From: Candidatus Poribacteria bacterium
Lineage (GTDB): Bacteria > Poribacteria > WGA-4E > WGA-3G
NCBI GenBank assembly: GCA_009845505.1
Contig: VXZL01000031.1
Coordinates: 1 to 14,551 of the forward strand
Direction of reading: 5' to 3'
DNA length: 14,551 nt
Position numbers and translations under genes: made by a program. Below the pieces are notes generated by a model. It did no database searches and was not told the origin of the DNA. It was given only the letters and a program-made list of their open reading frames with translations. Positions 3,180 through 14,521 of this stretch are shown here, in pieces. How positions within the stretch are numbered: the first letter of the stretch is position 1; each line of letters begins with the position of its first letter.

Positions 3180-3271
3180 TTAGGACCTACGCAATCTCCT
3201 GGTAGGTGCGGTTTCCTAACCGCACCGATCGCGTGATAAATAGCGGAATCCCGTAATTTTGCGTAAATCCT
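3180..3271. repeat. MITE-like palindromic element with internal hairpin
   Basis: The segment starts 1 nt after the dehydrogenase stop codon. Its ends are imperfect terminal inverted repeats: 3182-3194 (AGGACCTACGCAA) against 3259-3271 (TTGCGTAAATCCT), 11 of 13 positions complementary. Inside lies a perfect hairpin: GGTGCGGTT (3205-3213), loop TCCT, AACCGCACC (3218-3226). No coding capacity. Related copies of the inner hairpin occur near 6906 and at 14501. There is no T-run after the hairpin, so it is not a classical intrinsic terminator, though it may act as a 3'-end structure. Non-autonomous element status is inferred. Confidence 0.6.
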
Positions 3272-6742: not shown

Positions 6743-6880
6743 AATAGGGCAAAAGGATGCGTGTTCCGTATTTTTTGTCAAACTCACGATAACCCGTTTT
6801 TCTGATAGAATTTTTGGACAAAAAAACAGCCTATAACGTTTTTTACTTGATTTAGTTACGTTTGTATGGTATTGTTGCGA

Positions 6881-6925
6881 TTAGGACTTAGGCACTTCAT
6901 CGGTAGGTGCTGTTCCAACCGTACT
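6881..6925. repeat. Degenerate copy of the GGTGCGGTT hairpin element
   Basis: TTAGGACTTAGGCAC at 6881-6895 matches the left end of the 3180 element at 13 of 15 positions. The hairpin arms follow at 6906-6914 (GGTGCTGTT) and 6917-6925 (AACCGTACT), where 8 of 9 positions still pair if two G-T wobbles are allowed. No clear right-hand terminal repeat is seen. It lies in the 252-bp gap (6743-6994), about 70 nt before the M23 peptidase start. The remainder of this gap is A/T-rich with no other gene or convincing promoter. Confidence 0.55.
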
Positions 6926-6994
6926 GAGCCACTACGGATCCATCCGTTGATCATACGCAAATAGTTTTCCCGAAGCCTAAAGGAGGAGTGTTAG

Positions 6995-11301: not shown

Positions 11302-11442
11302 TGTACCATAGCCTGTTAGGCTGTGGCTCTTGTATCATAGTTTCCTGTTAGGAGACCGTGGTTCTTGTACCATAGCCTGTTAGGCTGTGGCTCTTTCTAC
11401 AGTTCGCTGTACCATGGTTTCCTATTAGGAGACCGGGGTTCT
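11302..11442. repeat. Array of four palindromic units (A-B-A-B) with conserved GTT/ATT loop
   Basis: Two identical 29-bp units A lie at 11302-11330 and 11366-11394; two 35-bp units B at 11331-11365 and 11408-11442. Each starts TGTAYCAT, folds into a hairpin and ends in a CT-rich tail. Unit A pairs CCATAGCCT with AGGCTGTGG across a GTT loop (9 bp, one T-G wobble). Unit B has arms extended by 3 bp on each side (GTTTCCT/AGGAGAC inner stem), with loop GTT in the first copy and ATT in the second. A 13-nt linker starting TTCTAC precedes the second B (11395-11407) and recurs with one change at 11443-11455. No gene is present in this gap (11293-11485). It separates the SDR stop from the TatD start. 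Confidence 0.85.
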
Positions 11443-11447
11443 TTCTA

Positions 11448-14239: not shown

Positions 14240-14268
14240 ATGTTAGCACAGCGCGGTGTTAATAGCAA
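14240..14268 (-). promoter_or_regulatory. Candidate sigma70-like promoter for the TIM barrel-MR-SDR operon
   Basis: On the minus strand TTGCTA (14268-14263) and TAACAT (14245-14240) are spaced by 17 bp, each matching 4 of 6 consensus bases. Transcription would start near 14233, giving a leader of about 25 nt that contains the AAAGGAG ribosome site. Spacing and position are right, the hexamers are only moderate. Confidence 0.4.
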
Positions 14269-14304
14269 GGGGCATTTTCTCTAACTTAACGCAAGTTGCC
14301 AGTT

Positions 14305-14362
14305 TGTAGCATAACCTGTTAGGTTGTGCATCTGAGGACGCAAACTAACAGTTTGCGGTACA
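14305..14362. repeat. Inverted pair of abutting 29-bp GTT-loop palindromic units
   Basis: Unit C (14305-14333, plus) and unit D (14362-14334, minus) abut exactly. C folds GCATAACCT (14309-14317) against AGGTTGTGC (14321-14329) around GTT. D folds CGCAAACT against AGTTTGCG around a loop read as GTT on the minus strand (14357-14339). Both share the TGTA start, length and loop of unit A at 11302, with different but self-complementary stems. They lie upstream of the minus-strand operon promoter. Confidence 0.8.
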
Positions 14363-14500
14363 AAATGCCTGGATCATTGACAGTTTTCAGTAAAAAACAA
14401 GGTATGCCTGTCTAAAATCGTGTAAGTAGCAACTTGGGTTAACTTAGGGTCATTTATGGTAAACCTGAAAAATAAATAGACCTTTGACCCTCACCTGGTA

Positions 14501-14521
14501 GGTGCGGTTTCTAACCGCACC
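14501..14521. repeat. GGTGCGGTT/AACCGCACC hairpin, third copy
   Basis: Perfect 9-bp stem (14501-14509 with 14513-14521) and a 3-nt loop TCT, against the 4-nt TCCT loop of the 3205 copy. The preceding CCTGGTA is also shared with the 3205 copy. No clear left terminal repeat is present, and the window ends before a right one could be judged. Confidence 0.75.

Follow-up and report, generated by a model that had tools for sequence, protein, structure and literature searches.

Two short hairpins, units C and D, abut tail to tail near one end of a 14,551-nucleotide stretch of DNA from a Candidatus Poribacteria bacterium, which is analysed here as a whole and termed the window. The bacterium is akin to others known from sponges. 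Copies of the same hairpin, termed unit A, occur elsewhere in the window with different arms. The locus raises two questions: why a fold should persist when the letters of its arms change, and how the pair came to lie where it does. The original prediction, made from the sequence alone, took compensated base changes between dispersed units as direct evidence that the fold is maintained while the arms drift, and asked whether single units move.

Hairpin units in the window

The features of the locus are collected in Table 1. Over the first 29 positions, units C and A differ at positions 5, 10, 20, 25 and 26, as originally claimed. In unit A, pair 5/25 reads C-G and pair 10/20 reads G-C; in unit C they read G-C and A-T, and both changes are compensated; the fifth difference, at position 26, falls outside the stem. 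The compensated changes claimed for unit D, at 7/23, 10/20 and 11/19, are likewise present, with the GTT loop as in C. Two features of D had been omitted: pair 5/25 is broken (C.T), so that the stem has 8 bp and not 9, and a one-sided change at 8/22 replaces T.G by C-G. The tetranucleotide head is GTAG in unit C and GTAC in units A and D. The 30-nt model matches of C and D share 2 nt at their tails, and 9 nt separate the two stems. Each unit folds better as single-stranded DNA than its own shuffles, with z values of -3.7 for C, -4.5 for D and -3.4 for A. In the A array (11302-11443), as in another locus (L223), short-arm and long-arm (TTTCCTGTTAGGAGA) relatives alternate, and similar arrays are seen on contig 343.

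Table 1. Features of the C-D locus and of the A array (positions in the window)
Feature	Position	Strand	Details
Unit C, REP hairpin	14305..14334	+	Tag T-GTAG; stem GCATAACCT / AGGTTGTGC; loop GTT; model 42.6 bits
Unit D, REP hairpin	14333..14362	-	Tag T-GTAC; stem CGCAAACT / AGTTTGCG; loop GTT; tail to tail with C; model 40.1 bits
Unit A	11302..11331	+	Same REP family as C and D; arms AGCC/GGCT; sequence comparison and model match
Longer-armed relative within A array	11331..11366	+	TTTCCTGTTAGGAGA
Unit A, second copy	11366..11395	+	30 nt identical to first copy
Second longer-armed relative within A array	11408..11443	+	
151-bp IS982-type MITE enclosing C and D	14289..14439		Ends like those of the 925-bp IS982 elements of G022
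Left terminal inverted repeat	14289..14304	+	ACGCAAGTTGCCAGTT
Right terminal inverted repeat	14424..14439	-	AAGTAGCAACTTGGGT on + strand
Target-site duplication, left copy	14282..14288		TAACTTA
Target-site duplication, right copy	14440..14446		TAACTTA

Copy number and covariation

A pattern consisting of the 5′ head, a free 5′ arm, the loop and free spacing has 64 + 52 = 116 matches in the 4.78-Mb genome from which the window comes (G000), compared to 22 + 12 = 34 for the reversed pattern. By hand count, the spacing is exactly that of units A, C and D in 79 among 100 pattern matches listed. A covariance model of the hairpin family, built from 20 copies, finds at least 155 matches in this genome at E<=10 and at least 149 at E<=0.1, with no more than 150 candidates scored in any genome. 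Of the 155 matches, 150 were listed and 129 of these were analysed; 16 copies of 29 or 33 nt and 5 weak copies of 30 nt were left out. The head, which lies directly before the stem, is GTAG in 104 of the 129 copies, GTAC in 23, GTAA in 1 and GTGC in 1. The arm versions AAA-CTGTTAG-TTT (48 copies), AAC-CTGTTAG-GTT (21) and AAA-CTTTTAG-TTT (18) were counted in the same set.

The 129 copies comprise 65 distinct stems. Coupling between columns was measured as mutual information with average-product correction and shuffles, statistics that ignore tree kinship, and the top four of 435 column pairs are the stem pairs 11/19, 7/23, 10/20 and 5/25. Over pairs 6/24 to 11/19 of the 65 distinct stems, 336/390 cells are Watson-Crick, whereas 2000 shuffles average 271 and reach 288 at most. 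At pair 8/22, every one of the 129 copies has G at position 22, with T or C at position 8; in the 65 distinct stems the pair is T.G or C-G and never C.A. This invariant G22 may mark a base that is read. Mismatch-type cells outside 8/22 number 5 for T.G, 5 for G.T, 6 for C.A and 3 for A.C in the same stems.

Because the model itself scores pairing, the count was redone with 87 copies selected solely by their 5′ arm and loop, which is a partial control in that its loci were mostly fetched for model matches. Pairs 11/19, 10/20 and 7/23 again lead the coupling, with 5/25 sixth, and pairs 6/24 to 11/19 are all standard in 78/87 copies. At pairs 6-11, the 39 distinct stems of this set show 33 two-sided changes, 31 one-sided changes that are still paired and 12 broken pairs. 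By hand comparison, 7 of the 79 exact pattern matches listed are absent from the 129.

A GTAG-tagged REP family

The C-D family is a GTAG-tagged REP family, and its units are neither free-standing nor of unknown kind. C-D itself is a tail-to-tail heterodimer of a GTAC partner and a GTAG partner. Because it is a REP heterodimer like the known REPINs or BIMEs, its compensated arms are already familiar from an established class of element.

The family has matches in 34/40 genomes, the window's own genome included. All 24/24 genomes of the same genus, to which both the own genome and a sister genome termed G022 belong, carry it, with at least 47-155 matches each (own genome included). No family match was found in six of the 40 genomes, among them both from other families in the class. 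Among neighbours within 120 nt in G022, 25 are tail to tail, 1 is head to head and 11 are direct; the tail-to-tail excess (25/37 neighbour pairs) has a binomial p of 6e-8 against 1/4. Neighbours among 53 listed matches of the own genome are direct in 19 cases, tail to tail in 9 and head to head in 0, and the excess of direct neighbours stems from a few arrays. Judged by eye, 12/20 tail-to-tail pairs of G022 join a GTAC and a GTAG partner. Their outer lengths (L075-L094) lie near 57, 73 and 88 bp, with spacers that look alike within each class.

Comparison of orthologous loci, which the original prediction had called for, suggests that copies come and go. At the orthologous place of C-D, no family match (E<=0.1) was found in 16/16 same-genus relatives fetched, and the upstream DNA fails to align there, so that no clean empty site is seen. 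The gene junction orthologous to that of the A array has no family match (E<=0.1) in 15/15 same-genus relatives. By eye, the second REP family of the window, treated below, is present at this junction in six of the 15. One relative (G012) has one family match and a likely decayed partner within 141 bp, where the window counterpart is 15 bp. Positions 14260-14470 have no match among the PLSDB plasmids.

The cognate RAYT

In G022, which is assembled as a single contig, 11 REP copies crowd positions 1906344-1907863 around, and once within, an open reading frame of 249 aa. This gene has an invariant NHVH and a conserved Tyr218. It matches NCBIfam REP_Tyr_transpos partially, at 57.5 bits and under the cut-off of 80, and no Pfam family at E<=0.01. 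Its 13 close homologues (at least 62%) are spread over 10/40 genomes, and the REP family flanks both sides (E<=1) of 13/13, although one side at L110 and L111 rests on weak REP matches of 13.6 and 12.1 bits. By comparison, 0/6 distant homologues have any REP family match, and matches occur at 3/34 other Y1_Tnp loci fetched.

The own genome (86% complete, 691 contigs) has no G022-type RAYT homologue at E<=1e-10, which may reflect either loss of the gene or a gap in the assembly. Its five Y1_Tnp loci were considered as the cognate gene and rejected, with 0/5 having a match to the C-D REP family. A further single-contig genome (G010) has no close RAYT homologue and two distant matches only; it retains 57 REP matches at E<=0.01. 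No transposase-like reading frame was seen by eye in a second REP-flanked gap of G022, at 926144-926875.

REP versions differ by RAYT lineage, and include AAA/TTT and AGG/CCT arms, a CTTTTAG loop and a TTCC loop. The arm and loop version follows the RAYT tree. On a tree of 20 Poribacteria rows, from which in-gene REP columns were left out and for which version labels were assigned by hand, the labels require 6 changes, compared to a minimum of 5 and a shuffled mean of 11.0, with 0/200 shuffles as low; the two CTTTTAG rows fall apart on this tree. Another tree, in which 5 outgroup rows share a single label, needs 7 changes, compared to a minimum of 6 and a shuffled mean of 15.3. RAYT relatives in Chloroflexi, Planctomycetota and Ignavibacteriales are accompanied by other hairpin arms that are still paired. 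Across RAYT lineages, 14 hairpins hand-picked from the RAYT-locus scan and the window have 96% of cells as standard pairs and 30 two-sided changes, compared to 71.9% and 7.0 in shuffles. A scan of 35 RAYT loci for GTA[GC] hairpins found none at 4 (L302, L313, L315, L321), and the sole such hairpin at L322 lies inside the RAYT gene.

REPs also occur inside the RAYT coding sequence, at one place, in L075 (6924-6953), L096 (1949-1978) and L109 (969-998), and L102 has a REP pair at the same place (1929-1987). These in-gene REPs share the loop version of the REPs that flank the same RAYT. The in-gene REP is weak or degenerate in L097, L098 and L101, and the shorter RAYT genes L103, L104, L110 and L111 have no REP match inside.

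An IS982-type MITE around C and D

The 24-nt arms around C-D are 83% complementary, and the flanking TAACTTA duplication matches at 7/7 positions. The motif GTAGCAACTTGGGTTA occurs 44 times in G022, compared to 11 for the reversed control. Divergent pairs of it lie 129-158 bp apart in 9 cases, 179-200 bp in 2 and 925 bp in 2. The 925-bp elements encode an IS982-family transposase (173 bits, cut-off 130), and both copies have a 7/7 duplication. Among the 11 short MITEs of G022, the 7-bp duplication is 7/7 in six, 6/7 in four and 2/7 in one; shuffles gave a mean of 1.1 exact duplications and, in 5000, a maximum of 6, which is the observed count. Five G022 elements combine ends of the same kind with the first 29 nt of unit C at a similar distance from the end, and four of these have an exact duplication.

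Given the inverted ends, the target duplication and the G022 elements like it, C-D most likely came here as cargo of an IS982-type MITE. Rather than moving as single units, a possibility that the original prediction had raised, the two hairpins probably arrived together inside this 151-bp MITE, whose insertion left a 7-bp target duplication. The motif GTAGCAACTTGGGTTA is rare in the own genome (11 matches, 9 in the control). An IS982-type end lies just upstream of the REP in 4/129 copies of the own genome and 2/40 copies of G022, compared to 103/20000 random positions. With such ends at so few copies, the MITE route of the C-D locus is a minority route.

A REP slot in MITE-2 elements

In the own genome, the end GGACTTACGCA of another element, MITE-2, lies 22 nt upstream of the REP in 17/129 copies, and both ends are present in 14. 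This end is carried by 14 of the 26 AAC/GTT copies, and it occurs at 152/20000 random positions. An exact 5-bp duplication flanks 10/14 of the own-genome elements with both ends, compared to a shuffled mean of 0.8 and a maximum of 6. Among the 30 best copies of G010, 15 have a MITE-2 end and 9 have both, and none was found at 40 copies of G022.

Alignment of 23 MITE-2 elements from the own genome and G010, of which 14 have an exact duplication, shows different arms at the same place. The slot holds AAC/GTT in 17, AAA/TTT in 3 and AGA/TCT in 1, and the one-sided versions ATC/GTT and AAC/GTC in one each. Of their REP cells, 205/207 are paired. Identity is 0.94 in the REP, 0.59 in the body, and 0.87 and 0.91 in the ends; in the G010 subset it is 0.92 in the REP, 0.56 in the body and 1.0 in the right end. 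Since the search for these elements started from their REPs, the count is too low for decayed ones.

Scanning all fetched loci by the MITE-2 ends gave 36 elements, of which 28 carry the C-D REP family under a loose rule, 3 another GTA[GC] hairpin in the slot and 5 none; the numbers are small and the loci are not a random sample. The slot holds AGG/CCT in G003 (L052), whereas G020 (L104) and L303 have the TTCC version there, and these versions agree with RAYTs of those genomes. L104 and L303 are RAYT loci, which means that their MITE-2 elements adjoin the RAYT gene; the genome of L303 also holds an AGG-type RAYT (L311). A different REP family occupies the slot in the window (3202) and in L016. 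Different arm versions in one slot of homologous MITEs indicate that arms changed inside the elements, and that some copies travelled as cargo.

It is a speculative and rather unlikely further reading that DDE-type MITEs of Poribacteria keep a standing REP slot at a fixed distance from one end, in which the hairpin is exchanged or converted to match the resident RAYT, in a partnership of single-strand HUH and double-strand DDE transposition. Should the slot hairpin truly track the RAYT of its genome, one element would be served by two transposition systems that are unrelated. Searches of open-access literature turned up no description of DDE-type MITEs that have target duplications and hold REPs nested in a fixed slot.

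Other REP systems

A second REP family (GTAGGTGCGGTTTCTAACCGCACC) is present in the window at 3183-3270 and 14498-14521, and in degenerate form at 6880-6926. At 3183-3270 it lies within a MITE-2-like element with ends GGACCTACGCA..TGCGTAAATCC and no exact duplication, in a slot nearly the same as that of the first REP family in other MITE-2 elements. On contig 183 of the own genome, a RAYT gene (L032, 1438-1911; NF047646, 124.6 bits) has four inverted copies of this second family on one side and three on the other, and is likely its cognate transposase. Other RAYT/Y1 genes lie near a GTAGGGGCTGGGT-type hairpin with repeated RAQLAPTE reading frames (L033), near GTAGCG.ATCTATTTTGGGTGTTGTCGGG-type repeats (L034) and near CACCCCTACAGGGTG-type repeats (L066). 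This suggests several REP systems in the genus.

Alternative explanations

That the fold is maintained while the arms drift holds across the copies of the genome, across RAYT lineages and phyla, and in one slot inside homologous MITEs. Covariation by itself is no demonstration of selection, however, because many copies are duplicates by descent and because templated repair of near-palindromes could yield compensated pairs unselected. Arm pairs may then match through mutation, either by arm copying (template switching in a near-palindrome) or by conversion between copies. The MITE-2 elements lend this some weight: their REPs are almost fully paired and far more alike than their bodies, also in G010, where no close cognate RAYT was found, and three AAA/TTT and one AGA/TCT version sit in a slot where 17 have AAC/GTT. 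One-sided paired changes are, however, about as frequent as two-sided ones in the 39 pattern-only stems, tag and loop are conserved too although arm copying would not renew them, and decayed elements were missed in a set found through its REPs. Mutation of this kind is judged rather unlikely. It could also be that only descent is at work, with few ancestral arm versions copied often and a fold without a role since. Versions are indeed few (48 + 21 + 18 of 129 in three), and more than half of the AAC/GTT copies bear a MITE-2 end. Against this stand the 65 distinct stems with coupling concentrated at stem pairs, the independent paired arm versions across RAYT lineages and phyla, and the occurrence of several paired versions in one MITE slot, and descent only is regarded as quite improbable.

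A hairpin could instead be kept for its work in RNA, as a terminator, or as an element that serves to process or stabilise the mRNAs that read through it. Between 11250 and 14551 there are 8 terminator-like sites, compared to 2.7 in shuffles, and A and its second copy are among them; the restriction of 8/22 to T.G or C-G also fits the reading of one strand in a way that tolerates wobble. Outside 8/22, however, wobble-type cells are about as frequent as C.A and A.C, the whole window has no Rfam match at the gathering score, and C-D sits upstream of the neighbouring gene and not at a 3′ end. Moreover, 40 copies of G022, which were taken from the stronger matches with simple ORF calling and are not a random sample, show no orientation preference. 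No copy is centred within an ORF of at least 90 aa. Those between tandem genes lie on the genes' strand in 13 cases and on the opposite strand in 12, and the others lie between divergent genes (8), between convergent genes (6) or at an edge (1). Extragenic position without orientation preference speaks for a role in DNA. It is accordingly doubtful, and to a high degree, that RNA work explains the fold, but a minor RNA role is possible given the terminator-like matches at A. Readings of the units as CRISPR-like or attC-like arrays, or as free-standing RNA genes, were entertained but not adopted. As for the arrival of the pair, C-D might be an ordinary REPIN moved by a RAYT, with MITE-like ends by chance, since tail-to-tail heterodimers of GTAC and GTAG partners occur elsewhere, most of them without MITE ends. 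This is very unlikely in view of the complementary 24-nt arms, the exact 7-bp duplication and the five G022 elements with like ends and the start of unit C, four of them exactly duplicated.

Proposed origin of the locus

C-D is a tail-to-tail heterodimer of a GTAG REP family that has its cognate RAYT in sister Poribacteria; quite probably, its fold is kept for reading by a RAYT and it arrived as MITE cargo. The RAYT, an HUH/Y1 single-strand nuclease, would read the GTAG strand as single-stranded DNA, in which case tag, stem length, loop and G22 would be held and most arm letters could change in pairs. Arm versions would change in this paired manner as RAYT lineages diverge. An IS982 transposase acting in trans would have inserted the MITE with C-D as its cargo. 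REPs of this family would therefore have two routes of spread, one together with the RAYT and the other by riding in DDE-type MITEs. The best, though unproven, reason for the fold is that the RAYT reads it as single-stranded DNA; points against this are that no close RAYT was found in the own genome or in G010, and that heads are GTAC in 23/129 copies. The surplus of direct over tail-to-tail neighbours in the own genome, and the 4/35 RAYT loci at which no GTA[GC] hairpin was found, also tell against the overall account.

Nature here offers a series of REPs with constant tag, loop and stem length but with arms that change in pairs, and with the sequence of the cognate RAYT alongside, so that it can be asked which protein residues read which hairpin feature. 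In addition, a second spreading route of REPs, as cargo of DDE-type MITEs with target duplications, can mislead counts of REP transposition.

Comparison with known systems

The C-D family shares many features with the GTAG REP families described in the main text of Di Nocera et al. (2013, PMC3733652). These include a GTAG beside a palindrome of 20-40 nt, high copy number, a mostly extragenic position, homo- and heterodimers, a RAYT link and several REP families per genome. Poribacteria are not mentioned in that main text, and the C-D family differs in having GTAC in 23/129 copies. REPs inside longer palindromes are noted there for A. variabilis and T. roseum; the account given of these palindromes describes no target duplications or DDE-type helper, whereas the C-D MITE has a duplication.

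With REPINs, as treated in sections of Bertels and Rainey (2011, PMC3116915), the locus shares the inverted REP doublet as a unit, and paired change of REP versions is noted there too. It differs in its asymmetric tail-to-tail partners, in outer lengths close to 57, 73 and 88 bp, and in the nesting of C-D in a MITE. The work on RAYT orthogroups (BMC Genomics 2013, PMC3686654) describes, in part of its text, orthologous RAYTs flanked by differing but still palindromic REPs, REPs left behind after RAYT loss, and paired REP change with RAYT divergence in Pseudomonas and Stenotrophomonas. The loci studied here share the first two of these, and the third accords with the origin proposed above. The present case differs in concerning Poribacteria, Chloroflexi and other relatives, and a RAYT of 217-249 aa with a partial NCBIfam match.

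The strand-specific reading of tag and hairpin as single-stranded DNA, as set out for TnpAREP in portions of a 2021 NAR paper (PMC8266576), is shared with the reading proposed here and would favour structure over arm letters. According to the same portions, GTAC in place of GTAG abolished cleavage in one studied RAYT and moved the cut site in another. Finally, the C-D MITE resembles MITEs of the IS982 family (compare the Cardinium MITE paper, PMC9769881) in its terminal repeats, which are common to the 925-bp IS982 copies, in its 7-bp duplication and in having no transposase gene inside. It differs from them in that it carries REP hairpins just inside one end.
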